Below, piece by piece: positions 1-26,563 of a DNA stretch of 37,454 nt. The notes under the pieces are model-generated. The model was given only the letters and a program-made list of their open reading frames with translations, had not been told where the DNA came from and ran no database searches. Location of the stretch: the NCBI GenBank assembly GCA_903941095.1, contig CAJANN010000075.1, positions 1 through 37,454 of the forward strand, in the 5' to 3' direction. Position numbers and translations under genes: made by a program. Within the stretch, counting starts at the first letter, position 1. Every line of letters starts with the position of its first letter. The DNA comes from an uncultured Rhodospirillaceae bacterium (GTDB taxonomy: Bacteria; Pseudomonadota; Alphaproteobacteria; Rhodospirillales; Magnetospirillaceae).

Positions 1-1566
1 AGCTACCTTGAGACCCATGCGGCGGAACTCGATCTGACCGGTGGCGGCCTGCGCGCCCTGATCGACGACATCGCCGCCATCACCGATCCTGGCGGGCGGG
101 TGGAGCGGATCAACGCCGCTGTAGTCGACACCTGCGCTCATCGCTATGAGGCGGTCCACAACCTTCTGCGGTCGAACGACCGGGACATTTTCGAGATGGA
201 CCAGTTGTTGCCGCCATCGCTGGATTCCATGCTGCGCTTCCTGCGGTTCGATCCCGCCGATCCACCCGAAACCATGCTGGAGCGGGCGGCCGAGCGGTTG
301 CTGGCCGATGTGGGATTGGACGAGGCGCTGTGGCGGCTGTCCTCGCTGCCCGTGCCCCTGCCGGTCTGTGTGATGGCTGCTGCGCGAGCGCTGCCACGGA
401 AGGAACTGCCGCGTCTGGCCCGGTCCTGGCAAAGCCGGCCGACTAGCCAATTGTCGATGCTGCATCTGATCCGGGTGCTGACCGAGATCGAGGGGCCAGT
501 CCCCGGGATGGGAGAGCGCATCCGACGGCACCTGGCCAACCCGGGGCGTCAGGAACTGCATACCCCCTTGTTCGACACCATCGGTTGGGTTCAGCGCGCA
601 TTCCTGCACCTGCCCGGATACCGCGACTTGCCCCATGCCGCCCGCCTGGCGCTGGCATGGTGTCACGGCGACAAGCTGTTCGCCGCCTTCCTGGTCGCCG
701 GCCGACATGTCGCCTTGTCGGAACAAGTCTCGCTGGCGACGCTGGCCGAACAATGTCGCCACGGAATCGACGTAACCATGAAGCGTCACCTGAGTGAACC
801 GTTGTTCCTGGTCCAGGGTCTGGCCTATGCCCTGGGTCCCCACGCCCCGGTGGTTCTGGGCGCCGAGGGGAGGGATTTGTTGCGTCCATCCTTGACCAGC
901 GGAAACCCCGATTTCCCGGTCCCGCTGGAATTTCACCGGATCATGTCCGCGGCGCCCAACGCTCTGGGGTCCTTCCTCGGCACCCCGGTCGAGCAGTCCT
1001 TATCGTCACTGGGCTTTGCAGACGAGGCGATGGCAATCCACCAACTCCGCGATCAGGCTCATGAGGCACTGATGCGTAAGGACGCCAGCCCGTGGGCCTG
1101 GCTAGTCGGGCTTTATCCTCACGGCCGGCCGCCCCAATCCATCGCTGATCATGCCCGCGACGCATTGCTGGCAACCGATGTCTTGTCACTGTGCCAGACC
1201 GGCCCGTCCGACAATTGGAGTCTGCTGGCTTATCTGGCGGAAACCGCCTGGGGACTGGCCGGCTCCGCCGGCACAGACCATATCCGCGACCAGGTGTTCA
1301 AGGTGGCGGAACGTCTGCGGGATGGAGGTGATGACGCCATTGCTCGGCGATCGCTGCTGGGCGCCCTGGTGGTTCTGGCCAGCCAACTGGGTGACGTTCC
1401 TGCCCGTGCCGAGCGTTTGGCCGAGGATGTCCGAAAATTTGTCGCCTTGGTCCCGTCCGCAGCCCCTATGTCCAGGGGGGTGATCCGTCATTTGATGGAA
1501 GACCTCGACGCCAGAGATATCGGGCGCTTGATGGCTGCGCTGCTGGAGTTGCGGGCCAATCGGTGA
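1..1566 (+). CDS. Unrecognised protein, 5' end outside window
   Basis: The ORF track starts this frame at a GTG at 100, but the frame is open back to base 1 (SYLETHAAELDLTGGG...), so the gene very probably begins left of the window and at least 521 residues of its C-terminal part are seen. The protein is leucine- and alanine-rich and looks all-helical, with no membrane segment, signal peptide or catalytic motif I recognise. Such a helical C-terminal part could belong to a large NTPase or scaffold protein, but no Walker motif is visible here, so this is only a guess. It lies inside the tRNA-fMet-integrated element and is therefore candidate cargo. It ends 375 bp before the next gene, which points the other way. 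Confidence 0.75.
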   Translation, partial: SYLETHAAELDLTGGGLRALIDDIAAITDPGGRVERINAAVVDTCAHRYEAVHNLLRSNDRDIFEMDQLLPPSLDSMLRFLRFDPADPPETMLERAAERLLADVGLDEALWRLSSLPVPLPVCVMAAARALPRKELPRLARSWQSRPTSQLSMLHLIRVLTEIEGPVPGMGERIRRHLANPGRQELHTPLFDTIGWVQRAFLHLPGYRDLPHAARLALAWCHGDKLFAAFLVAGRHVALSEQVSLATLAEQCRHGIDVTMKRHLSEPLFLVQGLAYALGPHAPVVLGAEGRDLLRPSLTSGNPDFPVPLEFHRIMSAAPNALGSFLGTPVEQSLSSLGFADEAMAIHQLRDQAHEALMRKDASPWAWLVGLYPHGRPPQSIADHARDALLATDVLSLCQTGPSDNWSLLAYLAETAWGLAGSAGTDHIRDQVFKVAERLRDGGDDAIARRSLLGALVVLASQLGDVPARAERLAEDVRKFVALVPSAAPMSRGVIRHLMEDLDARDIGRLMAALLELRANR

Positions 1567-1674
1567 TTTGGGGGCGTGCGGCAACAAACGTAACATGGCG
1601 TGGTGAGATGGAGGCCTGCCGAGTTACTGGCGGGAAACTGTGTTCGCGGTTGTGCTGGGATCGTTGGCCGAAAA

Positions 1675-1686
1675 TTGTCGCGACAA
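1675..1686. promoter_or_regulatory. 12-bp perfect palindrome TTGTCGCGACAA
   Basis: TTGTCGCGACAA is a perfect palindrome 34 bp before the iteron-like array. A related near-palindrome, TTGTCGGACAA, occurs at 1912-1922 on the far side of the array. The shorter form TTGTCGGAC recurs at 3548 (upstream of the relaxase) and at 5684 (upstream of mobC). The sites look like targets for a DNA-binding protein of the element; which one is unknown. Confidence 0.4.
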
Positions 1687-1719
1687 GATGTGGCGGCAAG
1701 AATCCGGTGTCCATACAGT

Positions 1720-1824
1720 TGACACGCCCGTTTCGAAACCAGTCACGCTGATTTCCATACCTGACACGCCCAATTCCGGCGTTGACACGCCCCTGCCGGG
1801 CGAAGTCACGGCCTGCTGCCGCTG
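1720..1824. repeat. Iteron-like array, five 21-bp units
   Basis: Five consecutive 21-bp units begin at 1720, 1741, 1762, 1783 and 1804. Units 1, 3 and 4 begin with the identical 10-mer TGACACGCCC; units 2 and 5 begin AGTCACGCTG and AGTCACGGCC. The CACG core is at the same offset in all five. A 21-bp period is two helical turns, as in plasmid iterons or tandem operator sites. The same 21-bp period would also encode a degenerate heptapeptide repeat (VDTPVSK, PDTPNSG, VDTPLPG) in a 61-codon plus-strand ORF (1640-1825), so a peptide-level origin cannot be excluded. No replication initiator gene is visible in the window. Confidence 0.65.
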
Positions 1825-1940
1825 ATTCCCTGAAAAGTCACAAGCGCCTCGCCGTGTCGGCCGGCTTTATGCGGCCTTCACGCCTCGTATCCATTCAGCA
1901 GGAATAGCAAATTGTCGGACAAATTGCCGGGGGACCGGGC

Positions 1941-2303
1941 TCAGGAGGGTGGTTTGCTAGGGCGGGATGGGCCGTCCCCTAGATCGTCATCCAAGGCCTC
2001 TAAGCATTGCCGAGTGGCCTCGAGATGCGCGAACAGCGCGGCGTCGCTGCAATTGGCGATCCAGTCCTGAAAGACCGCCTTGCGGCTTTCCGGCCAGTCG
2101 GGCATGAACCGCACCGGGATGCCGATCTCACCCGCGAACTCCACGGCGGCCGGGCTGGCCGCCATCACCTCGTGCTCGCCCTTCAGCCAGCCGCTCCACC
2201 AGGCCCTGGCCGCGTCCGAACCGTCGGCATGGGGGCATTCGGCACTGATGCGCATCGGCAGCATTGCCAGGCCGGCATAATAGCCCTCGGTGAATGGATC
2301 CAT
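1941..2303 (-). CDS. RMF/CrpP-like small protein
   Basis: The protein has 120 residues. The N-terminal 45 residues (DPFTEGYYAGL, CPHADGSDAARAWWSGW) follow the pattern of the ribosome modulation factor/CrpP fold: an aromatic-Gly motif, a Cys-Pro turn, then an AWxxGW helix. Family members bind ribosomes or have unknown roles, and small versions are common on alphaproteobacterial mobile elements. The remaining 75 residues are a separate acidic, helical extension that I do not recognise. The ATG at 2303 is preceded by a GGAGAGAGGA ribosome site. It lies 31 bp downstream of the hypothetical gene ending at 2335 on the same strand, so the two probably form an operon. The family assignment comes from pattern memory only. 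Confidence 0.65.
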   Translation of the reverse strand: MDPFTEGYYAGLAMLPMRISAECPHADGSDAARAWWSGWLKGEHEVMAASPAAVEFAGEIGIPVRFMPDWPESRKAVFQDWIANCSDAALFAHLEATRQCLEALDDDLGDGPSRPSKPPS

Positions 2304-2334
2304 GTCCTCTCTCCGCGAATTTGAGTCGCCAGTG

Positions 2335-3183
2335 TCATGCCGTCGTGGCGGTGCCGAGCAGGTTTTCGCGTTTCAGCGCCGCCGGCCAGCTTATGGCGGG
2401 CTCGATCATCTCCGGCGTGACGGTGAAGGTCGGGTGTTTGGGCGCGGGAATCCAGCCGCTCTCCAGGAACAGGATCACGCCGTCCGTACCATCAGTGACG
2501 GTCCTGATGGCGCCGATGCGATCAACCCATCCCGGCAAATGATTGCGCGTCACCTCACGCTCGGGGAGCAGCGGTTCTCCGGCTATGGTCCAGTACTCGA
2601 AATCCGTCAGCCGTCCGTTCATGCCGTGGGCGCGGAACATTTCGATCAGGAAGGCGGTCAGCGGTCGCCGTGCCGCGAGGCTGACGATGGGCACGAATTC
2701 GTAATCCTCCGGGCTGGGGCCAAACCACATGGGCACGGTGATCGCGTCGGGGAAGGTGCATCTGGCATAAGCATCGCCGATTCGACCGACACAGAAGAAA
2801 GAGCCAGTTACCAAAGCCCCGGCCCTTTCGTGCAGGCTCTGGATCATCTGGCCGGAAGCTCGGTCGAGCAGCGCCATCCAGGGACGCAGGATACGGTCGC
2901 GAAAGTCGGGGGCGACGGGCCAGGCATGGTAAATGCCGGGGACATAGCAGCGATAGCTCCAGCCGGCGAAATTCACCTGCTGGTCCTCGGTGGGAAGCGG
3001 TGACGGCAGGGGAGGGCGAAGGTCCAGCACAGGCGGGACCGAGGTGCTGTTCCGCGCCAGGAATGTGGCTTCTATGCGGGCGATTTCAGCGTTGAAACGT
3101 TCCGTGATCTCGGGCGGGCGGATTCGCGTCGCCATGCCGGGAGCATCAAAGGGCGGAAAGGGGGCGTCGAACGTTACGGTCAT
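2335..3183 (-). CDS. Hypothetical protein, 282 residues
   Basis: The ORF track extends this frame to 3687, but that would run through the divergent XRE regulator and its operator. The ATG at 3183 (MTVTFDAPFPPFDAPG) is a better start because it lies just left of the dyad at 3211-3249. The product appears soluble, with no signal peptide or membrane helix, and is rich in Pro and Trp (WSYRCYVPG, PMWFGPSPEDYEF, ESGWIPAPKHPTF). I do not recognise a family. Its divergence from an XRE regulator and its operon with the RMF-like gene suggest it is repressed by that regulator. A toxin or stress role is possible but nothing in the sequence shows it. Confidence 0.75.
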   Translation of the reverse strand: MTVTFDAPFPPFDAPGMATRIRPPEITERFNAEIARIEATFLARNSTSVPPVLDLRPPLPSPLPTEDQQVNFAGWSYRCYVPGIYHAWPVAPDFRDRILRPWMALLDRASGQMIQSLHERAGALVTGSFFCVGRIGDAYARCTFPDAITVPMWFGPSPEDYEFVPIVSLAARRPLTAFLIEMFRAHGMNGRLTDFEYWTIAGEPLLPEREVTRNHLPGWVDRIGAIRTVTDGTDGVILFLESGWIPAPKHPTFTVTPEMIEPAISWPAALKRENLLGTATTA

Positions 3184-3210
3184 CGCAGGCCTCTGGCACC
3201 GACAAGAATA

Positions 3211-3249
3211 AATAGTCCAATTCGGCCTAATATGCCGGTATGGACTATT
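3211..3249. promoter_or_regulatory. 39-bp dyad operator between divergent genes
   Basis: AATAGTCCA at 3211-3219 and its exact complement TGGACTATT at 3241-3249 flank an inner CGGC/GCCG pair. The whole forms a 39-bp dyad centred on 3230 with two mismatches in the 16-bp arms. It sits between the start of the leftward hypothetical gene (3183) and the likely start of the rightward XRE regulator (3274). That is where an autoregulating repressor controlling both promoters would bind. The binding itself is inferred. Confidence 0.65.
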
Positions 3250-3273
3250 TCTTGTCAAGGAACAGGAGGGTGC

Positions 3274-3519
3274 GTGGGAACTCGTGACAAATACGATCCG
3301 TTCTACAGGGCCATCGTAGATGGGCTGATCGCCGAGCGGAAACGCCAGCGGTTGACCCAATGGGACATCGCCCGGATGATGGGTGTCGAGCAATCGCAGA
3401 TATCGAAGTTCGAGCGCGGCGAACGCCGGCTCGATATCCTTGACTATGTGCGTTATTGCCACGCCATCGGATTGGAGCCCGGGCTTTTGCTGAGGATCAG
3501 TCCTGGGGGCGACGACTGA
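3274..3519 (+). CDS. XRE-family transcriptional regulator
   Basis: A small Cro/CI-type helix-turn-helix protein. The core reads LIAERKRQRLTQWDIARMMG then VEQSQISKFERGERRLD, the standard five-helix XRE DNA-binding domain, and there is almost nothing else in the protein. The ORF track uses an ATG at 3232, which lies inside the dyad operator. The in-frame GTG at 3274 follows AGGAGGG and is more likely, giving about 81 residues, although its spacing to the ribosome site is short. It probably represses itself and the divergent gene through the 3211-3249 dyad. The relaxase gene follows 71 bp downstream on the same strand. Confidence 0.8.
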   Translation: MGTRDKYDPFYRAIVDGLIAERKRQRLTQWDIARMMGVEQSQISKFERGERRLDILDYVRYCHAIGLEPGLLLRISPGGDD

Positions 3520-3590
3520 GGCGTCATGGGCATGAATTCCGCATAACTTGTCGGACAGACACGCTGGCAGTGCCTCGTTAGACTGGCGCC

Positions 3591-5228
3591 ATGGACGATG
3601 ACGACGACCTCTGGCGCCTGAAGATCGGCAGGTTTTCCGATGCCGATGAGCGGCTGTATGCGCGGCTGTTCCGTTTGCGCCGCCCACGCTCCCGAACCCT
3701 CAGTGGGCGTGCCCTGAGCTGGCGGGCGCGGCATGTGGACAGTGGCTGGCGGATGAACGACGGCCCCCAGGTGGTGGTTAAGGCCGCAGGCTCCAGCAAG
3801 AGCCGCTCCGGTGTCCGCGCCTGTATCTGTTATATCGCCCGGCTGCGGGCCCAGGATGATGCCGTAGTGCCGGTGTTCGACGAGATGGGGCGCCCCGTGG
3901 CGCGGGATCAGGTGTTCGGGACGCTAGCAAGCTGGGCGCTGGATGCCGATTCCGACAACCTCGCGCCAGCGGCTAGGCATCAGCCGGATGTTCAGCTACC
4001 GGAGCGTCTGCGCCTGCGCCATGTCCAGTCCCGGCACCTCGTGATGTCGATCCGGGCCGACGACATGGCGGCCGGGGCTGCCATCCTGCGGGACGCTGTC
4101 GCGGCCACGATCGACGGGGTTTTCACCCGCCAGGGCCATCGGGTGCTTTGGGCCATTCACACCGACACCCCAGGCCGCCCACATGCCCATGTAGTGGTCA
4201 AGGCGTTGTCCGAGTTGGGTGGGCGCCTGCGCTGCGATATTCACGGCGATCTTTTCGACACCATCCGCTCCGAGTTGGCGTTGAATTTGACACTGGCGGG
4301 GTTGCCGCATCAGGCGGCCCGGTGCGAGGACAGGGCGGATGTCCGGACGGCGGTGCTGAGCGGCGTCAAACCGTTACGTCGGAAGCGGGGCAGGGGGGAT
4401 GGTGATCTGCTGCGGCGTGCCCCCGCGTGGTGCGCGGAGTATGGCGCCGGTTTGGTCGCCCCATCACCATCGCCGCCACCATTGCACCAATGGTTGCGGT
4501 ATTTGGTGCCCCGCAGGAAGAAATCTGTTCAACCTTTCGAGGGGCCGGAGGAGTATCGGTTGGCTTTCTCGCTGGCGCAGGAGATTTTCTGCGATCCCAA
4601 TGCCGCACTGGTGTCCTGGCAACGTCTGACGATGGAGGGGAGCAATCGGCGTGCGAATGGGAGCGTCCACTATCCCAGCAGGGCTTTGGCTCTCTGGTAT
4701 CTCAAACGGCGTCCCGACATCTTTGGGGATCTGCTGCCGGGCTTCTCTCCCAGCGCATCAGTCCCGCTGGCGAGTGCCTTGGCTCGGGTGACGCTGCCGC
4801 CGCCCGAGGCCCAGCCAGTGCGGGCCGGCGTCATTGATCCGACCTTGGCCGTGGCGATCGCGCGGCATCTACTTGAACGGCGCATGGGGCGGGATCGCAA
4901 ACGAATTGCCGTCAGCCTTAGCCGGCTGGCGGCGCTGGTTCTGGATCGGCATGGCGATGCCCGTCAGGCCGGCCGTATCCTGGATGTCGCCGATCGAGTG
5001 GCTGTGGCATCGCTGCATCATAGAGCGACTGTCCCGCCGCCGGTGGCGGCTCGAGCTCTGGCGCCGCCTCTACTGCGGGATGTGTCAATGGCGAAGGGGC
5101 ATCTACAGGATAGGGGCACAGAGCGCCCCAAGGACCTGACACCAGCGATTCCACCGTCATCACGGCCACCGTTGGCGCCGGCCACCACCCCACGACCCCG
5201 CCCTCGCTACTCCGGGTGGGAGCGATAG
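3591..5228 (+). CDS. Relaxase, MobP/VirD2 type
   Basis: The 545-residue protein carries relaxase signatures in its N-terminal half. Motif I is SGVRACICYIARL, with the candidate nicking tyrosine. Motif III is HTDTPGRPHAHVVVK, the HxDxxxxxHxH metal-binding triad of HUH relaxases. The enzyme would nick oriT, stay covalently attached to the 5' end and pilot the strand through a conjugation channel supplied by another element. The C-terminal half (after about residue 300) is a poorly conserved helical region ending in a Pro/Arg-rich tail, and no primase or helicase motif is seen. The 3' end overlaps the convergent mobC-like gene by 22 bp. No type IV secretion genes appear in the window, so the element looks mobilizable rather than self-transmissible, unless they lie to the left. 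Confidence 0.85.
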   Translation: MDDDDDLWRLKIGRFSDADERLYARLFRLRRPRSRTLSGRALSWRARHVDSGWRMNDGPQVVVKAAGSSKSRSGVRACICYIARLRAQDDAVVPVFDEMGRPVARDQVFGTLASWALDADSDNLAPAARHQPDVQLPERLRLRHVQSRHLVMSIRADDMAAGAAILRDAVAATIDGVFTRQGHRVLWAIHTDTPGRPHAHVVVKALSELGGRLRCDIHGDLFDTIRSELALNLTLAGLPHQAARCEDRADVRTAVLSGVKPLRRKRGRGDGDLLRRAPAWCAEYGAGLVAPSPSPPPLHQWLRYLVPRRKKSVQPFEGPEEYRLAFSLAQEIFCDPNAALVSWQRLTMEGSNRRANGSVHYPSRALALWYLKRRPDIFGDLLPGFSPSASVPLASALARVTLPPPEAQPVRAGVIDPTLAVAIARHLLERRMGRDRKRIAVSLSRLAALVLDRHGDARQAGRILDVADRVAVASLHHRATVPPPVAARALAPPLLRDVSMAKGHLQDRGTERPKDLTPAIPPSSRPPLAPATTPRPRPRYSGWER

Positions 5229-5569
5229 CGGGGGCAGCGCTTGGGCGGCAAAAAATCTTTCGCCCGATGAGACAAGGATTCGATCTGGGCCAGGACGCGG
5301 TGGATGTCTTCATTCCTTTCCAGACAGCTTTGTGAGAGTAGCAGACGCTGAAGCGCGGAGGCCAATCTGTCGAGATGGAGTGTAAGATCCCGCATTGCAG
5401 GAATGACAGTCGCTGACAGAGATGTGCTCTTAGACGTCACGGTCTCCTCCAGTAGCAGCCGTGCAGTGGCGCTTAGAGATCGTGAACCTGTCAATCGGCG
5501 GAGGCGGTGTAACTCATGCTTCAGCTCGGCACAGCACCGCATTTCTATTTTTTCATCCTTGGTCGGCAT
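5207..5569 (-). CDS. MobC-like relaxosome accessory protein
   Basis: A 120-residue protein with the layout of MobC/relaxosome proteins: an N-terminal ribbon-helix-helix-like stretch (KIEMRCCAELKHELHRLRR, then SLSATARLLLEE) followed by a long helical region. Such proteins bind near oriT and assist the relaxase. The ATG at 5569 is preceded by GGAGG at good spacing. The gene converges on the relaxase gene and overlaps its end by 22 bp, an unusual arrangement because mobC usually lies upstream of and codirectional with the relaxase. The region in front of it (5570-5727) holds one arm of the 32-bp inverted repeat and may contain oriT. The family call rests on context and fold pattern, not strong identity. 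Confidence 0.6.
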   Translation of the reverse strand: MPTKDEKIEMRCCAELKHELHRLRRLTGSRSLSATARLLLEETVTSKSTSLSATVIPAMRDLTLHLDRLASALQRLLLSQSCLERNEDIHRVLAQIESLSHRAKDFLPPKRCPRYRSHPE

Positions 5570-5600
5570 GATGACCTCCGGCCCCGGCGCTCTGGCCGGA

Positions 5601-5632
5601 GAGTTTGATGGTCGAAATATTGCAGGAGGATG
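5601..5632 (+). repeat. 32-bp inverted repeat, internal copy
   Basis: The 32 bases beginning GAGTTTGATGGTCGAAATAT are the exact reverse complement of 8274-8305, next to the att site. This copy sits between the mobC-like gene (starting at 5569) and the excisionase gene (ending at 5728). Identity ends at the GAG that corresponds to the first three bases of the tRNA fragment. The remaining noncoding bases 5633-5727 contain a TTGTCGGAC motif at 5684 and nothing else I can assign. Confidence 0.9.
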
Positions 5633-5727
5633 AGAAGGCGTGTGGGGGCGGGCGGACGCTGGTTTTCGGTCTTCACGCCTAGCTTGTCGGACCGGGATCG
5701 CGCCTGCGTCGGCTGTATATCGCCTGC

Positions 5728-6018
5728 TTACCCGCCGCTGTCCTGCTTTTCATGGTCGGGCGGGGCGTCCGCAGTGTTGCGCTTAAGTCCGCCGGACAGG
5801 AGCCATTGATAAAGATGACGCCGGAAATATCGAACCAATCTCGTCCCTTTGGGGCGGATGTGGATTGGGCCGCCACCGCGCGAGCGCATTGTGACCAGTG
5901 AATCGACTGGGACGCCCGTAATACGGGAGGCTTCCTCGGTGTCGATGGCCTCGTCCAGCCAGCCGGGGTTTTGGGTAAGCAGATCACGCAATTGGGGGAG
6001 TAATTTGACGATATCCAT
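5728..6018 (-). CDS. AlpA/Xis-type excisionase, helix-turn-helix
   Basis: The likely start is the ATG at 6018 (MDIVKLLPQLRDLL), which follows AGAGGGAACC. The ORF-track start at 6093 adds 25 residues without a ribosome site. The resulting 96-residue protein has a MerR/AlpA-like winged helix: IDTEEASRITGVPVDSLVTM, then RSRGGGPIHIRPKGTRLVRYFRRHLYQWL. That is the usual excisionase layout of recognition helix, Gly-rich turn, wing with an Arg-Tyr/Phe, and final helix. These proteins bend att DNA to favour excision or switch on integrase. It is followed by mobC and preceded by the DUF2285-integrase pair, all leftward. The GGTAAGC repeats in front of the integrase gene are plausible targets. Confidence 0.75.
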   Translation of the reverse strand: MDIVKLLPQLRDLLTQNPGWLDEAIDTEEASRITGVPVDSLVTMRSRGGGPIHIRPKGTRLVRYFRRHLYQWLLSGGLKRNTADAPPDHEKQDSGG

Positions 6019-6100
6019 GGCTGGTTCCCTCTGAAAACTGGTCCCCAGCTTGGCGTTATGCGTCCCGGCTGGGGAGGGAGAGAAATCAGCCAAAATTGCG

Positions 6101-6973
6101 CTACCGTGACCTAGATTTTAGGAGCTTTCGGTAACCACCATTCACCCTGTCCAAACCAACCTCGATGCAATTCTCAATGTCTTTGCGCATGGCGTCACCG
6201 GCGCGCCATTCTTCCTTTACGCGTTGGCGGCCATATATAATTTCAGCAATAGCGCGTGGCTTGTAGTTCCTGAGGTGCCCATCCAATACCCGTAGTATTT
6301 TGACGTGTTTCCGCGCCCTTAGCATGGATGGTGAAATGAAAAAATGGCGCCCATCTCGTGCTGGTCGGTCAAAAATGTCATGCGCATGTTCTGAAAGGTG
6401 TCTTGATGGCGTAAGATTGAGTTTAAGATTCTCATGTGGACGTGGAAATGGTGCGGTTTTGCTGCGAATTGTAACTTGTGTGAATGAGTGTCTTATTGTC
6501 ATGTAGATCCCATTGTCACTAATTGTGCAATAAACACTTCCTCCGCAAGTCATTGGGTCAAGGCGCTTGCCTCTAGTACGAAGAGGTCGCTTTGTTACTT
6601 CGGCGTTGATCGCGCTCGCATTGTCAAGCCAATGAACGACAGCATTCTCGCAACTCAAAAGTGGAGATTCATATTCGACCAAGCCCCATAGAGATGGTCC
6701 ACGTTCAATGATATCCGCTGCATTTGGGGGAAGTCGGCGTAGCTCCTCACATAACTCTTTTTTCTCCTCCTCTTCAAAGCTACCTGGGATCGCAAGGTAA
6801 TTTTCACAGTGTCGCGCGGCCTTCATAACGGCCATCGCAACATAATATTCGTGTCGATAATGCTGGTTCCTCCTCAGATATTCCCAGGCGATCATTTGCT
6901 TGTTGGCTAAGAGGATGGGGAGATACGACCCAGCGAGTTCAGGATATGGTAGAGGAAGTTCGTCTTCATTCAT
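6101..6973 (-). CDS. DUF6499/DUF2285-type regulator-like protein
   Basis: The start is the ATG at 6973, which overlaps the integrase stop (ATGA), so the two genes are translationally coupled; the longer frame to 7198 is a shadow of the integrase gene. The 290-residue product begins with the pattern MIAWEYLRRNQHYRHEYY, typical of the DUF6499 transcriptional-regulator-like domain. It ends with a DUF2285-like helical region (ILRVLDGHLRNYKPRAIAE, then KEEWRAGDAMRKDIENCI). Such proteins are common next to integrases and transfer genes on alphaproteobacterial integrative elements; their role is thought to be regulatory but is not established. The gene is visibly more AT-rich than its neighbours, consistent with acquired DNA. 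The domain names are from memory. Confidence 0.75.
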   Translation of the reverse strand: MNEDELPLPYPELAGSYLPILLANKQMIAWEYLRRNQHYRHEYYVAMAVMKAARHCENYLAIPGSFEEEEKKELCEELRRLPPNAADIIERGPSLWGLVEYESPLLSCENAVVHWLDNASAINAEVTKRPLRTRGKRLDPMTCGGSVYCTISDNGIYMTIRHSFTQVTIRSKTAPFPRPHENLKLNLTPSRHLSEHAHDIFDRPARDGRHFFISPSMLRARKHVKILRVLDGHLRNYKPRAIAEIIYGRQRVKEEWRAGDAMRKDIENCIEVGLDRVNGGYRKLLKSRSR

Positions 6974-8136
6974 CGGCTGACCTCCTCTATAATGGTTCCG
7001 ATGGTTTCGCTGGCCTTGGCCAGCGGGTCTTGCCACAGGTGGGCGTAGCGCGCGGTGGTCTGCGGGCTGCTGTGGCCGAGCAGACCGCCGAGGATCTGCA
7101 ACGGCACCCCGGCCGAGGCGGCCGTACTGGCGAAGCTGTGGCGCAAGTCGTGGATGCGCACGTCGTCGAGCTTGGCGTGTTTGCGCACACGGTTCCACGG
7201 TTTCTGCAGGTTAATGAGGTGCGAGCGCTCGTTTTTTCCGGTGATGACGAAGGGGTTGTCCTCGTCTTCCTGCGGCAGGGCTTCCAGCAGCTTGATTGCG
7301 GCCGAGTTGAGCGGGATCGCCTTGGCGCCGTGCTTGTCCGTCTTGTGCCGTTCCAGTAGCAGACGGCGGTTGGCAAGGTCGACGCTGCGCCATTCTAATT
7401 CAAGAATTTCGTTGAGCCGGCAGCCGGTTAGGCAGAGGAGACGAATCGCCGCCGCCTGGTGGGTGCCTATCACCTTCATGGCTTCCTGCTCGTCGAGGCT
7501 GGCGAACAGCCGCTTGAATTCCTCGGGGGTGAGGAAGCGCTGGCGCTTGCGTTCCTGGAACGGCTTGACCGGCTCTGCGGGATTGGCATGAGTGGGGATC
7601 TCGCCCCACTGCTCGGCCTTGTTGAACATCGCCCGCAGCAGGCCGAGGCAGCGATTGGCATTATAAGGAGTGTCGCGCAGCCCTTGGTGGAAGCGGCCGA
7701 TGTCGGTGGCGGTGATCTCCTTGACCTTGTGGGCGCCGAAGCGGGGCAGGATGAACTTGTCGAGCAGCCAGCGGTGTGCCGCCATGGTGCTGGCCTTGCA
7801 GCGGCCGGTGCAGTGCTCGTCCATATAGCGGTCCGACAGGTCGCGGACGGTGTCGCCGGCGCGTGCCTCGCGGCGCTCCCGTACCGGGTCGTCGCCCAGC
7901 GACACGCCGCCCTTCAGCTTGCTCGCCTCGCGGCGGGCCTGGTCGAGCGTGAGCTGGCCCACGCGCCCGAGCGACAGCCGCTTGCTTCTGCCGTGGCGGT
8001 TGCGATACTGGAGGATGAAGGTCTTGACGCCCGACGGCTTTACCCGCACGCCGAAGCCGGGCACCGCATCGTCCCAGACGACGATGTCATCTTCCTCGGC
8101 CTTCAACCCTCCGATCACCTGCTTCGTCAGCCTCAT
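6970..8136 (-). CDS. Tyrosine integrase, P4 family
   Basis: A 388-residue site-specific recombinase. The N-terminal arm-binding domain (DUF4102-like) reads DDAVPGFGVRVKPSGVKTFILQYR. A core-binding SAM-like domain follows at about 95-180, then the catalytic domain. Catalytic residues are visible: Arg in CLTGCRLNEILEL, HxxR in IHDLRHSFAS, and the second His and nucleophilic Tyr in LLGHSSPQTTARYAHL. The length is normal for prophage P4-type integrases, which use tRNA 3' ends. The gene starts 137 bp from the tRNA-fMet fragment and points into the element. It overlaps the next gene by 4 bp. Confidence 0.95.
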   Translation of the reverse strand: MRLTKQVIGGLKAEEDDIVVWDDAVPGFGVRVKPSGVKTFILQYRNRHGRSKRLSLGRVGQLTLDQARREASKLKGGVSLGDDPVRERREARAGDTVRDLSDRYMDEHCTGRCKASTMAAHRWLLDKFILPRFGAHKVKEITATDIGRFHQGLRDTPYNANRCLGLLRAMFNKAEQWGEIPTHANPAEPVKPFQERKRQRFLTPEEFKRLFASLDEQEAMKVIGTHQAAAIRLLCLTGCRLNEILELEWRSVDLANRRLLLERHKTDKHGAKAIPLNSAAIKLLEALPQEDEDNPFVITGKNERSHLINLQKPWNRVRKHAKLDDVRIHDLRHSFASTAASAGVPLQILGGLLGHSSPQTTARYAHLWQDPLAKASETIGTIIEEVSR

Positions 8137-8153
8137 TCGAACCCCCGCCGCCA

Positions 8154-8230
8154 GGTAAGCGCTGGGTAAGCATGTGCTTACCCGTTATGGCCGCCTTTAG
8201 CAACCGTGGTCAATGATAGCGTAAACGCTA
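8154..8230. promoter_or_regulatory. Repeated GGTAAGC sites and palindromes before int
   Basis: GGTAAGC occurs at 8154 and again 11 bp later at 8165. The second copy forms half of a perfect palindrome, GGGTAAGCATGTGCTTACCC (8164-8183). A further palindrome, TAGCGTAAACGCTA, lies at 8217-8230. One-helical-turn spacing next to an att core is typical of excisionase or integrase arm sites, and the same region must hold the leftward int promoter. Occupancy by the AlpA-like protein is inferred. Confidence 0.55.
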
Positions 8231-8273
8231 ACATATTGAAATAGGCTATAAAACAAGTACTTCCAATCTCCCG

Positions 8274-8305
8274 CATCCTCCTGCAATATTTCGACCATCA
8301 AACTC
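8274..8305 (-). repeat. 32-bp inverted repeat, att-proximal copy
   Basis: This is the exact reverse complement of 5601-5632. Its last three bases (CTC) are the first three of the tRNA-fMet fragment, so the repeat runs into the recombination junction. It is element DNA, replacing what would be the 5' half of the tRNA. Confidence 0.9.
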
Positions 8306-8347
8306 ATAACCTGAAGGTCAGAGGTTCAAATCCTCTCCCCGCAACCA
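8303..8347 (+). other. attachment site: 3' fragment of tRNA-fMet
   Basis: The 45 bases starting CTCATAACCTGAAGGTC and ending CCCCGCAACCA match an alphaproteobacterial initiator tRNA from the anticodon loop (CAT anticodon) through the variable loop, the T arm (GGTTCAAATCC) and the CCA end. The D arm, the 5' half of the anticodon stem and the acceptor 5' strand are missing; AT-rich element sequence precedes the fragment. It is therefore the crossover copy left by integration at a tRNA gene, and the break falls in the anticodon loop, as is common for tyrosine integrases. The intact tRNA should be at the other end of the element, left of the window. Confidence 0.88.
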
Positions 8348-8351
8348 AATC

Positions 8352-8383
8352 AGCCCGTAAGTCTAACGACTTGCGGGCTTTTT
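8352..8383 (+). terminator. Rho-independent terminator of the tRNA-fMet locus
   Basis: AGCCCGTAAGT and ACTTGCGGGCT form an 11-bp stem (one G-T pair) with a CTAACG loop, followed by five T residues. It lies five bases after the CCA and is presumably the original chromosomal terminator of the tRNA gene, now separated from its promoter. Bases 8384-8467 hold nothing I can assign. Confidence 0.85.
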
Positions 8384-8467
8384 GATTCTTCAGCCCAATC
8401 TCCCAAAATCAACCTCGGTAGCACTGTGGTGGCAAGAGGGCGCAAGCTACCGCGAAGCATTGCGTGC

Positions 8468-9412
8468 TCATGGCATTTGGCGGGAGATTGTATATCCCAG
8501 GCTGTCGTATCCTCTGATCCGCTTGCCGCTCATGCGGGCCAGTACCGGGACGGCCTCATCGACGTAATCGTAGATGATGACTTCACGCTTCCCAGGGTGG
8601 AGTCGATGCAGGCGACCGGCATATTGGGCCAGGGTGCCACGCCAGGAGATCGGCATGGTCAGGAACAGGGTTGCTGTCTTGCCGGGTGTCAGGCGAATGT
8701 CGGACAACTCCCGCCATTCGGCTCCGTCGGATTCGACACGCCTCCGGATCTCTCTTTCCACTGCGGTATCCGTCACGGGATTGCCCATTTCGTCGAGCAG
8801 CACCGCGTGCATCACGACCTTCGGGGTAACGTATGTGGGGAAGGCGTGGCCGATGCCCGTGTTGGTGAGGGTGAAGCGGGCGCCGGTGTCATCGGCGGCG
8901 AAATCCGCCTGAAGGCCGGAGCGCGTCATCTCCGGGTCATGGATGCCGTGCCACAGATGTTTGCATCGGGCATGTGGCAGGTCTGGCAGGTTTGCCCGGC
9001 AGCAGCCTGCCGGCTTTGCCGCCATTCCGCGACGGTGTTTTCCAGCGGCTTGCCGTTGATGTCCTGGTCTTCGGAGAACTGGTGGCAGGCGGCGCAGAAC
9101 TCCGCCTTCTCGAAATCGGCGGCACGGGTGACGCCGCCGTGAGGTGACGCTGCCGCACTCGGGCCGACGGCACCCGTTTCCCGTTGTGGCGGCCCGAAAT
9201 GACGATGCCGCCGGACGTGGCAGCCAGCGCAGGAATTTCCCGACGCGGCGAGCCCTTGGGCTTCGGGCCGGTGGCCTTTTTTCCGTGTGGTTGCCGCCGC
9301 GAATGCCGCCGCCTGCTCGGCCAGGGGGGCATGGCAATTCATGCAGGCCCGCTCCGGAGGCATTCCCACAACCAAGAAGGTGACCCGACCCGACACCGAT
9401 GACATCATGGCC
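8468..9412 (-). pseudogene. Tetraheme cytochrome c, frameshifted and 5'-truncated
   Basis: Two minus-strand frames together give one protein. The first (about 9412 to 8959) has four heme-binding motifs: CMNCH, CAGCH, CAACH and CQTCH. At a GTTT run (8959-8962 on the plus strand) the coding meaning shifts to the frame continuing HLWHGIHDPEM, then LTNTGIGHAFPTYVTPK. That Gly-His-Pro-Thr strand is a typical C-terminal domain of periplasmic multiheme cytochromes. No signal peptide can be found: the frame upstream reads SADSAAFIGSQTAMM, which looks unrelated, so the 5' end also appears lost. Heme attachment without export is not possible, so the gene is very likely dead. A sequencing error could explain the shift but not the missing signal peptide. 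Bases 9413-9559 contain no gene. Confidence 0.75.
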
Positions 9413-9559
9413 GTCTGACTACCTATGAACGCGGCACTGTCAGCCGATTGCCGTCTCTGTACAATTCTTGTAGTACGCCGCGCTGCTCATCAGCTGCTGA
9501 GATGCGCTTTTCATGATAAATACTGACGTCGCAAGTTGTTTTTTTTGCAAATAAAATAT

Positions 9560-10576
9560 TTAATTTATCTGTGCAGACTTTCGTATTTTGCTTGGGCTGT
9601 AACCAAATTTTCTCTTAAATGCAGATAGAAAGTGGTTTGTGTGGCTGTAGCCAAGATTTTCAGAAATTACCTTTAGTGGCGTACTGCTGTTTTCGATTGC
9701 AGCGTGGGCTTCTAATAACCTTCTCTCCATTAAAAAATTATATATTGATTTTCCAAATACCTTTTTGAAGTCGTTGTTCAGCGTGTCGGCTGTAACATTG
9801 TATCTCTCTGCGAGTTGGTCGAGTGTTGGGATTTTTCCATTAAGTGAAGTTAGCTCAGATTCGAGCTCTCTAACTCTTTTTTGTGATTTTCCTGATTTTT
9901 GATGTGTGGTGTCTTTGTCAGCGCCAAAATGGGTTATGAGCTGAGACACATATTCAAGGCATTTTGCCTGAGCGTGTAGCACCGCTGCGGGGCCGTCCAT
10001 TTTGTGGTCGATTGCTGAATAAAGTGTCCTCCCAATATCTTGTGCAATAACTTTCTTGGAAAATGAGTTCCTGGAGGAAAGATCAACAGAGGATAAAAGT
10101 GATAAAAACGTGTCGCTCCCAACAAGGGGGGTCATCGACATCACCGGAGTTATAATACAATAAAGAATACATCTTTCGCCGGAATCCACGAATCCGGTGC
10201 TGTCATATCTGTCGGTTCGTATAAAAAGTGTTTCGCGCTTATCTTGGTGATATTTCTGTTTAAGGTGTGCATCATCGTAAACACATCGTCCTGATTTCAA
10301 CGTGTATATCATAATAACATCTTTGTTGAATTCGCTGACCGCGCGTATGACCGGGATCAGTGCCCCATTGGCTCTGGATTCAAAAATATACTCGGAATGG
10401 GCGAGTGACATTCCGAGCGGTAGATCGACGAAGGTCAACGAGGCAGAGCCAATGTTGCCTTCAAGAGGAATTTCCTGGCGTATCATCGGGGGGCGCGACG
10501 AGCCGATATTGAGATTTTTTCCGGTCTCGCCCTGAAGCCACTCAAGCCGGGCCTTATCATCGAAGATATTGCGCAT
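9560..10576 (-). CDS. AraC-family transcriptional regulator
   Basis: A 338-residue protein. The C-terminal quarter is an AraC/XylS double helix-turn-helix: TLDQLAERYNVTADTLNNDF, then the linker and second helix region TPLKVISENLGYSHTNHFLSAFKRKFGYSPSKIRK. The N-terminal 230 residues form an unidentified sensing domain, and a coiled, charged stretch (KSQKRVRELESELTSLNGK) precedes the DNA-binding part. The gene is clearly more AT-rich than its neighbours, with ATA and AAA codons, suggesting separate acquisition. It is divergent from the secretion/adhesin operon; the 414-bp gap contains two 10-bp direct repeats exactly 21 bp apart, the usual half-site spacing for this family. It is therefore the best candidate regulator of that operon. 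The inducer is unknown. Confidence 0.9.
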   Translation of the reverse strand: MRNIFDDKARLEWLQGETGKNLNIGSSRPPMIRQEIPLEGNIGSASLTFVDLPLGMSLAHSEYIFESRANGALIPVIRAVSEFNKDVIMIYTLKSGRCVYDDAHLKQKYHQDKRETLFIRTDRYDSTGFVDSGERCILYCIITPVMSMTPLVGSDTFLSLLSSVDLSSRNSFSKKVIAQDIGRTLYSAIDHKMDGPAAVLHAQAKCLEYVSQLITHFGADKDTTHQKSGKSQKRVRELESELTSLNGKIPTLDQLAERYNVTADTLNNDFKKVFGKSIYNFLMERRLLEAHAAIENSSTPLKVISENLGYSHTNHFLSAFKRKFGYSPSKIRKSAQIN

Positions 10577-10670
10577 TATGGCTTAATCCATCTTGTCGGA
10601 TGAGACTCTCTTAGCTCGCTTCTGGCAATGGCGTCCACCATCTCCCCGTCCCTTCGGACAGTGATTCGGG

Positions 10671-10701
10671 TTTTGCGTGGTTTTTCCTCGCTTTTGCGTG
10701 G
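10671..10701. promoter_or_regulatory. Tandem direct repeats TTTTGCGTGG, 21 bp apart
   Basis: TTTTGCGTGG at 10671-10680 recurs exactly at 10692-10701, a centre-to-centre distance of 21 bp. AraC-family proteins typically bind direct half-sites with this spacing. The repeats lie 95 bp from the AraC gene start and about 300 bp upstream of the first operon gene. The rest of 10577-10994 holds a terminator-like hairpin (10952-10973) and no convincing gene. Confidence 0.65.
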
Positions 10702-10951
10702 CGCAGCCCTAATGCCCTAATTCACATACGGCTTTAGTCTGTGCCGGAAGCTGTCGCTCGTCTTGTGGCAAGGCTATTCGGTCGACAAAGTGGGCATATG
10801 GGCCGTCATGGCACGCATTGCCTTGCCGACATGGCGCTTTCCTCCGCCGTCGCTGTATCGCCGTCGCACACAAGGTCGATCCGCTCTTTAGGGGGGCTCG
10901 CTGGTGGGGATCATCACCGGATTTGGATTTTGAGCGACAAAGGCCTTATCT

Positions 10952-10973
10952 CCCGCGCATAGCGGGTCTTTTT
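10952..10973 (+). terminator. Small hairpin plus T-run in operon leader
   Basis: CCCGC-GCATA-GCGGG followed by TCTTTTT has the form of a compact intrinsic terminator. It ends about 21 bp before the ATG of the mini LEPRWMFDGA gene. It could end a transcript from upstream or act as an attenuator for the operon. The stem is only 5 bp, so the call is tentative. Confidence 0.45.
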
Positions 10974-10994
10974 CATTATTTGGGGATTGGGGCC

Positions 10995-11225
10995 ATGAAT
11001 GCCTTTTTGTCAAAGCAGAAGCGCCGTCACAACACTCTCGGTCTCATGGCTCTTGAACCCCGGTGGATGTTTGACGGCGCGGCGATGGCCGATGCCGCGC
11101 ACGCCGCCCCCGATGTTGCCGCTAGGGCGCAGATCCCCGACGCCCCCGCCCCGGTCGAGGTCAAGATCGCCTTCACCCAACAGCTCAAGCTGGCCGCACG
11201 TCATGCCGCCATCCGCTTTTCCTAA
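10995..11225 (+). CDS. 76-residue LEPRWMFDGA mini-protein
   Basis: The protein has the N-terminal signature LGLMALEPRWMFDGAAMAD and an Ala/Pro-rich stretch (IPDAPAPVEVK), followed directly by the tail AFTQQLKLAARHAAIRFS. Both ends match the giant adhesin encoded downstream, which starts LGLLALEPRWMFDGAVVAD and ends LAFTQQLKKAGRHVDMARLA. The whole central portion of the giant is absent. The start chosen is the ATG at 10995, because MNAFLSKQKRRHNTLG parallels the MGSIKRKRQKISLG start of the giant; the ORF track extends further upstream without homology. There is no classical signal peptide. It is the first gene of the operon, 17 bp before the TolC-like gene. It may be a small cosecreted substrate, a decoy or assembly factor, or an internal-deletion remnant; an intact frame with both termini favours function. 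Confidence 0.8.
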   Translation: MNAFLSKQKRRHNTLGLMALEPRWMFDGAAMADAAHAAPDVAARAQIPDAPAPVEVKIAFTQQLKLAARHAAIRFS

Positions 11226-11242
11226 GTCCAGGGGATAATCAC

Positions 11243-13036
11243 ATGACCGCCAATCTGTCCCGCATGGCCCGCCAGCTGGCCGCCGTGTCCGCCGCCGCCC
11301 TGCTGTCGGCCTGCGCCGTGACGCCGACGCCGTTTACTGCCGAGGAGTTCTCGGCCAAGGCCAAGGCGGATCGCGCCGCCATGTTCGATGGTCAGGACGT
11401 CCTGTCCAAGCCGTTGACCCTGTCCGGCGCGGTGGCCCGTGTGCTGAAGTACAATCTGGACAAGCGATCCAAGATGATGGACGAAGCCCTGGCCCTGGGG
11501 CAAACCAGCCTCGACCGCTTCGACCTGCTGCCCAAACTGACGGCCAATGCGGGCTATACCGAGCGCTCGGCGCCGAACGCCACCAAGTCGCGGGATCTGT
11601 ATACCCAGACCACCAGCACGTCGAACCCCAGCTATTCGGCCGACCGCTTTTCCATCACCAACGATCTGGGCCTGACCTGGAACATCCTGGATTTCGGCGT
11701 CTCCTATTTCACCGCCCACCAGAATGCCGACCGCGCCCTGATCGCCAGAGAAAAGCGGCGCAAGACGGTGAATAACCTGGTCCAGGAGGTGCGCTTCACC
11801 TTCTGGCGGGCCGCTGCCGCCCAGACCCTGAAGGGCAAGGTCACCGAGATCATCGCCAATGCCGAGAAGGCGTTGAAGGACTCCGAGCGGGTCGAGGCCG
11901 AAAAGCTGAAGAACCCCACCGAGACGCTGCGTGTGCAAAAGACCCTGCTGGAAAGCATCCGTCAGCTTGAAGCCATCGATCAGGAGTTGACCACGGCCAA
12001 GGCCGAGCTTGCTGCATTGATCAATGTGCCGCCGGGCAGTGATTTCAAGCTTGAGGTGCCCGAGAAGGGGGGCATGACCATCCCGGAATGGTCCATGCCC
12101 GTCGAGCAGATGGAAGAGGCGGCGCTGATCAACAACCCCGATCTGCGGGAACAGGATTACCAGAGCCGCATTGCCATCGACGATACCCATAAGGAGCTTC
12201 TGAAGCTGCTGCCAGGTGTCACCCTGTCGTTTTCGCGGCAATACGATTCCAACTCGTTCCTGGTGGACAATCGCTGGAACGATGTCGGCACCAAGGTCAC
12301 CTGGAACCTGATCAACCTGCTGTCGGCCCCGGATCGCCTGGCCCACGCCGACAGTGCCGAAAAGGTGGCCGACGCCAAGCGCATTGCTTTGCGCATGGCG
12401 GTTCTGGCCCAGGTCCATGTGATCTCCCACCAATTCGCCAGCGCTGCCAGGCAGTTCGAGCGGGCCGACAAGCTGTGGGGTATCGAAACCCGCCTGGCCG
12501 AGGCCTCGGGCAACCAGCAGCGCGGTGGCACGGCCAACGATATCGAGCGTATCAGCACCGAGACCTCGGCCATTGCCGCCGAGCTTCGGCGCTTCCAGAC
12601 CTATGCCCAGATGCAGTCGGCCTACGGCAAGCTGCAATCCACCATCGGCGCCGATCCGGTGCCCGAAAGGGTGGCCTCGCACTCGCTGGACGGCCTGTCG
12701 GGCGCCATCGTGCTGGCCATGCCGCCGGTGGTGAAAGCCGATGCCGCGCCACAGGCAGCTCCTGCCGTGACAGAGGCTGTGAAGGCCGACGGTTTGACTG
12801 AAGCGGAGCAATCCGACGTGGTTGCCGATGCCCTGGGATGGCTGGGCCGCGCCATCTCAGAGAAAGTCCAGGAACTCTCCGCCCCGACCAAGCCGGACAC
12901 GGCTCCAACGGTCCTGGCGCCTCCAGCCACCGCCACGCCGGTTTCCATGACCGCCGAGCCCGCCGTGTCGCAGGTCGCTCAGGCCAATCCGTCGGACCGC
13001 CATTTCGACTGGCTGGGACGCCCCATCAACAGGTAG
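11243..13036 (+). CDS. TolC-like outer-membrane efflux lipoprotein
   Basis: A 597-residue protein. An N-terminal lipoprotein signal (AAVSAAALLSACAV) places the lipid-anchored Cys at about residue 24. The body is an outer-membrane efflux protein with long coiled-coil helices (LGQTSLDRFDLLPKLTANAGY, then EKRRKTVNNLVQEVRFTFWRA and ALINNPDLREQDYQSRIA), giving the trimeric beta-barrel/alpha-barrel of the TolC/OprM family. The C-terminal 130 residues are an extra Ala/Pro/Thr-rich extension in which WLGR occurs twice (ALGWLGRAIS and FDWLGRPINR). AGGGGA lies 7 bp before the ATG. Its position between the mini-protein and the giant, with two adaptors downstream, identifies it as the exit duct for the surface protein. 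Confidence 0.93.
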   Translation: MTANLSRMARQLAAVSAAALLSACAVTPTPFTAEEFSAKAKADRAAMFDGQDVLSKPLTLSGAVARVLKYNLDKRSKMMDEALALGQTSLDRFDLLPKLTANAGYTERSAPNATKSRDLYTQTTSTSNPSYSADRFSITNDLGLTWNILDFGVSYFTAHQNADRALIAREKRRKTVNNLVQEVRFTFWRAAAAQTLKGKVTEIIANAEKALKDSERVEAEKLKNPTETLRVQKTLLESIRQLEAIDQELTTAKAELAALINVPPGSDFKLEVPEKGGMTIPEWSMPVEQMEEAALINNPDLREQDYQSRIAIDDTHKELLKLLPGVTLSFSRQYDSNSFLVDNRWNDVGTKVTWNLINLLSAPDRLAHADSAEKVADAKRIALRMAVLAQVHVISHQFASAARQFERADKLWGIETRLAEASGNQQRGGTANDIERISTETSAIAAELRRFQTYAQMQSAYGKLQSTIGADPVPERVASHSLDGLSGAIVLAMPPVVKADAAPQAAPAVTEAVKADGLTEAEQSDVVADALGWLGRAISEKVQELSAPTKPDTAPTVLAPPATATPVSMTAEPAVSQVAQANPSDRHFDWLGRPINR

Positions 13037-13046
13037 GCGGCGAGTA

Positions 13047-13211
13047 ATGGGAGGCGACGATGATCGGTCAGACGCTCGCCCGTGCCACCAGGAATGCCAT
13101 CCGCCGGATGGGCAGCTTTCCCTGACGGAAATCGCCGTCTTGGCCAGGACGCTGCAGGATTCCAGCATGGCGGTACCCGTTGATGTTTCTCATGCCAAAA
13201 GCCAGGAGTAA
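13047..13211 (+). CDS. Possible 54-residue small protein
   Basis: A short complete frame, MGGDDDRSDARPC to SHAKSQE, fills the gap between the TolC-like gene and the giant adhesin. It begins 10 bp after the upstream stop and ends 6 bp before the downstream ATG, and its last codons contain the AGGAG ribosome site of the next gene. The middle (LTEIAVLARTLQDSSMAVPV) could form one amphipathic helix. I recognise no family. The ribosome site in front (GGCGGCGAG) is weak. Snug packing argues for coding; absence of homology argues caution. Confidence 0.4.
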   Translation: MGGDDDRSDARPCHQECHPPDGQLSLTEIAVLARTLQDSSMAVPVDVSHAKSQE

Positions 13212-13217
13212 GCGATT

Positions 13218-25715: not shown

Positions 25716-25725
25716 GGCTTTGTCC

Positions 25726-26100
25726 TCAGCAGCACCCGGACTTGGGCGAACAGCAGGATGGGCCATCGGCCTTGACGGTGATCTTCGGCTTGGGAAGGCC
25801 GATGCCCAGCTTGGCGGCCAGCTGGTCGCGGGTGAGATGGATGCCGGTCGAGACGATGTGGCCGTCGATGGCGATGATCGGCAGGCGATCCATGCCGGCC
25901 TCCATCTCCTTGACCACCGCCGGATTGGCGGCGAAGGCCTGCGGCTCGGTGCCGAGATTGTAGCGCTGGACGGCAACGCCTTGCTCGGCGACCCACTTCA
26001 GATCGGCGGCGAAGGCCACCAGGGCCGGGTCCACCTCGGGGCCGCACACGCCGGTCGAACAGCACATGGCGGGATCGTAGACTTCGAGCTTCTTCATCAT
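25726..26100 (-). CDS. arsD: Arsenic metallochaperone ArsD
   Basis: The protein has 124 residues with a thioredoxin-like fold. The N-terminal CCSTGVCGPEVD holds the vicinal Cys pair plus third Cys that bind As(III). Two further vicinal pairs occur at the C-terminus (SCCSPKSGCC), as in the plasmid R773 protein. ArsD passes arsenite to ArsA and represses weakly. Two ATGs are adjacent (26100 and 26097); AGGAGG is 2 nt from the first and 5 nt from the second, so the second is probably used. The gene lies between the glutaredoxin-type arsC and arsA on the same strand. Confidence 0.95.
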   Translation of the reverse strand: MMKKLEVYDPAMCCSTGVCGPEVDPALVAFAADLKWVAEQGVAVQRYNLGTEPQAFAANPAVVKEMEAGMDRLPIIAIDGHIVSTGIHLTRDQLAAKLGIGLPKPKITVKADGPSCCSPKSGCC

Positions 26101-26118
26101 GTCCTCCTATGCCTTCGT

Positions 26119-26547
26119 TCAGACGGGGCGCTTTCCATGCTCATCGACGACCTGCTCCCCGTCTTCCTTGGCGAAGGCGCCCCGCTGGGGGTTCGGGAGA
26201 ATGTCGAGGACCGCCTCGGACGGGCGGCAGAGCTTCACGCCCAGGGGCGTGACCACGATGGGGCGGTTGATCAGGACGGGATGAGCCATCATCGCGTCGA
26301 CAAGCTGGTCATCGGTCAGCGCCGCATCATCCAATCCCAGATCGGCGTAAGGCGTGCCCTTCCGGCGCAGCAGGTCGCGGACCGGAATGCCCATGCGCGA
26401 GATCAGCGCCTCCAGCTCATCTCTGGTGGGCGGGGTCTGCAGATATTCGATAACCCGGGGCTCCTCGCCGGAATTGCGGATCAGCCCCAACGTATTGCGC
26501 GAAGTGCCGCATGCCGGGTTGTGATAGATGGTGATTTCGCTGTTCAT
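26119..26547 (-). CDS. arsC: Arsenate reductase, glutaredoxin type
   Basis: A 142-residue protein of the ArsC/Spx family. ITIYHNPACGTSRNTL carries the single catalytic Cys followed by the conserved GxSRN, and RPSEAVLDILP is the standard C-terminal motif. It reduces arsenate to arsenite using glutathione and glutaredoxin. The operon also contains an unrelated thioredoxin-type ArsC. It lies 16 bp downstream of acr3 and 18 bp upstream of arsD, same strand. Confidence 0.95.
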   Translation of the reverse strand: MNSEITIYHNPACGTSRNTLGLIRNSGEEPRVIEYLQTPPTRDELEALISRMGIPVRDLLRRKGTPYADLGLDDAALTDDQLVDAMMAHPVLINRPIVVTPLGVKLCRPSEAVLDILPNPQRGAFAKEDGEQVVDEHGKRPV

Positions 26548-26563
26548 GCCGGTTCTCCCGCGA

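Follow-up and report, generated by a model that had tools for sequence, protein, structure and literature searches.

A 32-bp perfect inverted repeat at the end of an integrated element in an uncultured Rhodospirillaceae bacterium is read here, with a probability of about 0.6 for the explanation as a whole, as part of two mirror-image P'-type half-sites of the element's own integrase, on both of which the integrase would dock, whose identity would be kept by strand exchange between them, and one of which would be tied to the mobilisation genes. The layout is mirrored, its arm-type motifs are phased, the arrangement is conserved throughout an integrase clade, and the two copies evolve in concert. 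The stretch of DNA analysed, called the window throughout, comprises 37,454 nucleotides; its features are collected in Table 1, where X1 is the internal copy of the repeat and X2 the copy at the attachment (att) junction.

Table 1. Features at the integrase end of the element (window coordinates)
Feature	Coordinates	Strand	Remarks
MobP1-like relaxase	3591..5228	+	MobP1/Relaxase matches weak, below curated cut-offs; relatives found
Small mobC-like gene	5207..5569	-	points outward from X1; mobC name from a weak profile match and position
X1, internal copy	5601..5632	+	between the mob accessory gene and xis; opens with core half-site GAGTTTGATGGTC
X1 arm-type motif GGGTAAGC	5726..5733	-	125 bp inward from the X1 core
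xis-like HTH protein, putative recombination directionality factor	5728..6018	-	HTH_17 below cut-off
DUF2285-type regulator	6101..6973	-	PF10074 and PF20109 above cut-off; FseA-like
Tyrosine integrase	6970..8136	-	PF00589, PF13356 (arm-binding) and PF14659, all above cut-off
X2 arm-type motifs GGTAAGC/GGGTAAGC, three	8155..8183	.	8155-8161 (+), 8164-8171 (+), 8176-8183 (-)
AT-rich TTTCAATATGTTAGC, IHF-like	8227..8241	-	putative IHF role
X2, att-junction copy	8274..8305	-	the tRNA-Met anticodon-loop overlap begins with its outer end, CTC (8303-8305)
tRNA-Met (CAT) 3' fragment, displaced half of the target tRNA	8303..8347	+	45 bp; adjoins X2

The inverted pair and the element end

The repeat described in the sequence-only reading was confirmed, its arms being 100% complementary and 2641 nt apart; for a window of equal length and composition, chance predicts about 3e-10 such pairs. 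No third copy was found in the 3.57-Mb genome with up to 3 mismatches. The genes said to lie between the copies were likewise recovered, namely a xis-like gene (HTH_17, a weak match), a DUF6499/DUF2285-type gene (PF20109 and PF10074) and the tyrosine integrase gene (int). Leftward from the tRNA, the order is integrase, DUF2285/DUF6499-type regulator, HTH protein, X1, mobC-like gene and relaxase, so that features of the FseA/RdfS type adjoin int, the two regulator domains scoring above cut-off and HTH_17 below it. The start of the regulator was placed by inspection inside ORF 6101-7198, and that of the xis-like protein inside ORF 5728-6093. The small HTH protein, which has homologues in the same place in L038, L210, L211 and L213, is probably an excisionase, a name taken from a weak profile match and its position. 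The mobC-like gene has no Pfam or NCBIfam match, and homologues of 36-41% identity occur in L038, L207 and L208.

X2 ends inside the crossover region CTCATAA (8303-8309), in the anticodon loop of the tRNA-Met 3' fragment. Outward from this overlap, TTTGATGGTC on the element side and CCTGAAGGTC on the tRNA side form, by inspection, an imperfect inverted pair, as expected of integrase core sites. The integrase family targets tRNA-Met, many relatives of about 40-47% identity likewise ending at CTCATAACC. In a complete one-contig relative, G139, an intact tRNA-Met at one end is separated by 78.7 kb from the 3' fragment at the opposite end, which indicates whole-element integration of the ordinary kind. 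In the window the 3' fragment is at the int end and the far end lies beyond the contig, the full layout being known from G139.

To the right of the tRNA fragment (window 8303-8555), 253 bp at 78% and 134 bp at 88% identity match sequence flanking two more tRNA-Met fragments of this genome (G000:C266 and G000:C41). This suggests that the DNA there is the end of a neighbouring island, with tandem or repeated tRNA-Met integration, and not plain chromosome.

Elsewhere in the window, positions 13218-19436 encode a 2072-aa repetitive surface protein with DUF4347, ten He_PIG and cadherin-like domains, beside TolC-like, HlyD-like and M50/HlyD genes, apparently its own secretion system, and positions 23967-27787 hold an arsenic-resistance-like cluster with a double-domain ArsA ATPase and an SBF-family transporter.

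Core half-sites and arm-type motifs

The mirrored unit is larger than 32 bp, since both X1 and X2 open with the same integrase core half-site and carry arm-type motifs about 125-145 bp inward. The motif GGGTAAGC occurs four times in the window against 0.64 expected, with two copies adjoining the att copy and one inside X1. The three motifs of X2 lie 145, 134 and 123 bp inward from the core, about one helical turn apart.

The same spacing recurs in other elements, with distances counted here from the first G of GAG. At X1, GCTTACC stands at +125 in the window, +125 (1 mismatch)/+136 in L213, +125/+135 in L235, +135/+144 (1 mismatch) in L242 and +125/+136 in L038; at X2, it stands at +134/+145, +133/+144, +134/+145 and +133 (1 mismatch)/+144 in GCTTACC-type elements. 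The offsets, typically about 125/136 at X1 and 134/145 at X2, are thus helically phased and hold within 1-2 bp across elements, and for one exact arm motif at that place in shuffled X1 sequence P was 0.0007-0.001 per element. The arm word of L210 and L211 differs, with TGATTTCC at X2 +134/+145 and, by inspection, GATTCCC near X1 +125. In these two elements the word has switched from TGCTTACC to TGATTTCC at the same positions, an apparent case of co-evolution with the integrase N-terminal domain.

Between repeat and arms, X1 and X2 are only 15-40% identical. The AT-rich IHF-like segment belongs to X2, being clearest in the window, L210, L211 and L213, and X1 has no such segment. With core and arm sites assigned by position and conservation, X1 would be a mirror-image copy of the P' half of the attachment site and not an oriT, since a core half-site and phased arm-type motifs are present on both copies. 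X1 would so be kept by selection on putative integrase contacts, with one architectural difference from X2.

The same pair in related elements

Five other distinct elements proved to have the same arrangement with different sequences, a finding which also disposes of the pair being a relic. The perfect pairs measure 32 bp in the window, 44 bp in L213, 50 bp in L210, 48 bp in L211, 57 bp in L235 and 29 bp in L242. Each of the six has an att copy ending within the tRNA overlap, an int gene that faces the tRNA, and an internal copy, X1, in inverted orientation 1.8-13 kb inside the element. An assembly artefact was ruled out, as the pair is present in six distinct elements, one of which sits in a one-contig genome. 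L274, from another species, has a 57-bp pair identical to that of L235, which brackets int and a small ORF only. In L242 the copies enclose 13 kb of cargo (580-13620), which includes a UvrD-family helicase gene beside an AAA_21 (AbiEii-like) ATPase gene, a Gabija-like combination, as well as HTH/M78 peptidase genes. The decayed element L038 (G054:C119), in which a deletion fused xis to the middle of int, has lost the int start and kept X1 and the arms.

These relatives were found through neighbouring proteins (synteny), because the letters of the repeat drift and a sequence search misses them; when 99 related genomes were searched for the 32-mer, allowing 3 mismatches, the window alone was matched. 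The identity of the copies had been taken as a possible sign of recent transfer; the arrangement turns out to be as old as the integrase clade, now diverged to about 50% identity. The same integrase identity of about 50% between carriers rules out a recent duplication as the source of the pair.

In a maximum-likelihood tree of 48 integrases, those of the carriers form one clade (nine rows) with 100/100 support. Two members are exceptions: for L241, X1 was not found on its 25-kb contig, which may end early, and L240 has neither a tRNA junction nor arm motifs near int. A 23-bp inverted repeat of L240/L003, which has no arm motifs and no tRNA core, was set aside. No pair was found at 22 junctions of other tRNA-Met integrases, where the best inverted match to the att sequence was 18-23/37, equal to shuffled controls, against 33-37/37 in carriers; these control loci cover no more than about 15 kb of each element, and a copy lying farther away could have escaped the comparison. 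Close relatives of the integrase were absent from the viral contigs, phages and plasmids scanned, and from 399 genomes of the phylum at E <= 1e-108. The 15-mer GAGTTTGAYGGTCGA gave 86 matches in viral contigs, 0 of them with an arm motif within 200 bp.

Concerted evolution of X1 and X2

Within each element, X1 matches X2 without a difference for 28-55 bp from GAG onward, positions 13-27 included, and between elements identity outside the core falls to 24-82% at positions 13-30. The closest elements, L210 and L211, differ by four substitutions in the tract, every one present in both copies of each element, while identity in the DNA just inside X1 and X2 is down to 53% and 84%, respectively. Since the tracts change in both copies while their flanks diverge, the two sites are, to judge from these comparisons, evolving in concert, some process copying one onto the other, and for this homogenisation a strand exchange between the two sites, initiated by the integrase, would be the simplest explanation.

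The outer edge of the tract bears on this process. The identical tract stops inside the 7-bp overlap, of which 3-5 of 7 bases match; with L038 included, the internal copies agree with the tRNA in GAG (7/7), TGAG (6/7) and ATGAG (2/7). Such a boundary agrees with strand exchange beginning on the P' side of the overlap and failing before it reaches the other end, though it does not prove it, because under ordinary gene conversion the tRNA would set the same edge.

Proposed mechanism and alternative explanations

In the scheme proposed, X2 would be the working site, combining arm sites and an IHF-like bend with the core half-site and with a 7-bp overlap in the anticodon loop of tRNA-Met, and X1 would offer a second core half-site with arm sites, in the opposite orientation, inside the element. 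The integrase would dock on both, pair X1 with X2 and begin strand exchange, as would be possible because they share the P' half-site and the 3-5 overlap bases next to it; since the remaining overlap bases differ, the exchange would mostly be aborted or repaired, thereby copying one site onto the other and leaving 29-57 bp identical. X1 may fail to build a full recombination complex, since it lacks the IHF-like segment and its arms are about one turn closer to the core. In elements that carry mob genes, X1 stands just upstream of the small mob gene pointing away from it, as X2 stands upstream of int, and for this reason integrase bound to X1 would probably tie mobilisation-gene expression to the integration/excision state. 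In a wider and more tentative form, considered rather less likely than not, the internal mirror of the P' half would be obligatory for the clade, and its integrase-driven exchange would serve the element, by flipping or locking the module or by a tie between mobilisation and excision, and would give rise to the concerted evolution.

For the homogenising step the main alternative is RecA-dependent conversion, which could keep repeats of 30-57 bp identical. X1 would in that case be a P' half duplicated once and still used as an integrase operator, its central tract being maintained by ordinary gene conversion. A very low conversion rate already outruns mutation over about 40 bp, and the tract edges of L242 decay, with 2 mismatches in the 16 bp beyond the 29-bp tract; nevertheless, tracts as short as these (29-57 bp) lie at, or close to, the lower length limit of RecA recombination, yet all are perfect, even 13 kb apart, and the outer edge falls inside the 7-bp overlap in every case, so this account is considered possible but somewhat unlikely. 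Complete recombination between X1 and X2 would instead flip the xis-DUF2285-int segment, placing the X1 arm where the working P' arm stands at the junction and toggling the element between excisable and locked forms. The sequence-only reading had suggested such an inversion, and two observations favour it: inverted core half-sites with arms flank the integrase gene on both sides, and the identity of X1 and X2 implies some recombination between them. Some tyrosine recombinases, among them those of Tn916 and CTnDOT, tolerate overlaps with partial mismatch. PMC10214605 refers to a heteroduplex spacer of the Tn916 type. However, the second orientation was not seen, int adjoining the tRNA in all 6 distinct pairs, and the X1 overlap matches the tRNA in just 3-5 of 7 bases, so that an invertible module is unlikely.

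Two further readings centre on mobilisation. If X1 were the mobilisation system's nic region or oriT, with the att copy derived from it, its position beside the small mob gene in the window, L038, L210, L211 and L213 would be accounted for, as would the GC-rich hairpin that can be drawn just outside X1 in the window, L038 and L210; but what is conserved is the integrase core half-site and arms and nothing else, no similar motif was found near distantly related MobP plasmid relaxase loci, and in L235 and L242 X1 lies away from mobilisation genes. An oriT origin is therefore regarded as highly improbable and, of the earlier interpretation as a whole, it falls away together with recent transfer, the integrase-site part standing on the core half-sites and phased arm-type motifs of both copies conserved across the clade, and inversion being possible but unseen. 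Inverted half-sites may also pair into one recombination site, as in the folded attP of CTXphi and integron attC, and if X1 paired with X2 in the single strand during transfer, perfect complementarity would be under selection. Such pairing would explain sequence changes in both arms and a stem end inside the overlap, giving a fork, and would suit elements that carry a relaxase. The arms here, unlike those of CTXphi and attC, are 1.8-13 kb apart, and the tRNA is restored as in ordinary double-stranded integration, as G139 shows at its far end; a folded site, though possible, is unnecessary and very unlikely. Pairing of transcripts is not favoured, as X2, about 170 bp upstream of int, is probably not transcribed.

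Relation to known systems

ICEMlSymR7A of Mesorhizobium targets a different tRNA. As described in PMC11963761, this IntS/RdfS/FseA system resembles the present element in its tRNA-targeting tyrosine integrase, in arm-type sites adjoining int, and in a small wHTH directionality factor with a DUF2285/DUF6499-type activator (FseA); its excision factors bind attP and element promoters, and an operon couples excision to the relaxase gene. A mirrored second P' half-site is not described in the parts of that source considered here.

Strand-biased circularizing elements (SEs), GInt, RIT and Tn554 likewise have tyrosine-recombinase genes within inverted repeats bearing core motifs, but there the repeats form the termini of the entire element (in SEs they are imperfect and 13-19 bp long), and the elements use two or more recombinases without a tRNA (PMC10214605). 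The present element, in contrast to RIT, SE and Tn554, has one integrase, only X2 at an element end, and direct tRNA core repeats, so that it was not placed among them. In addition, the pTN3 integrase of Thermococcus offers a precedent, as it inverts DNA between inverted att sites and also carries out homology-driven exchange; it is archaeal and needs about 104 bp for its homology-type reaction, whereas the mirrored tracts described here are known from sequence (PMC5495485).

Significance

For tRNA-targeting integrases, the usual picture of the attachment site is a single attP with a P and a P' arm. Throughout the present integrase clade, the element contains another P' half in mirror orientation, which stays identical to the first within each element and drifts between elements. 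No earlier description of this arrangement was found in open-access papers, and its novelty is provisional. The combination of an inverted P' tract with phased arms provides a search signature by which such elements and their cargo may be found, the 13-kb defence-like cargo of L242 being an example. The pair would amount to a record, left in nature, of exchange still going on between integrase sites. With it one could test directly whether the integrase acts on its own module by conversion or by inversion, and what couples mobilisation to excision.
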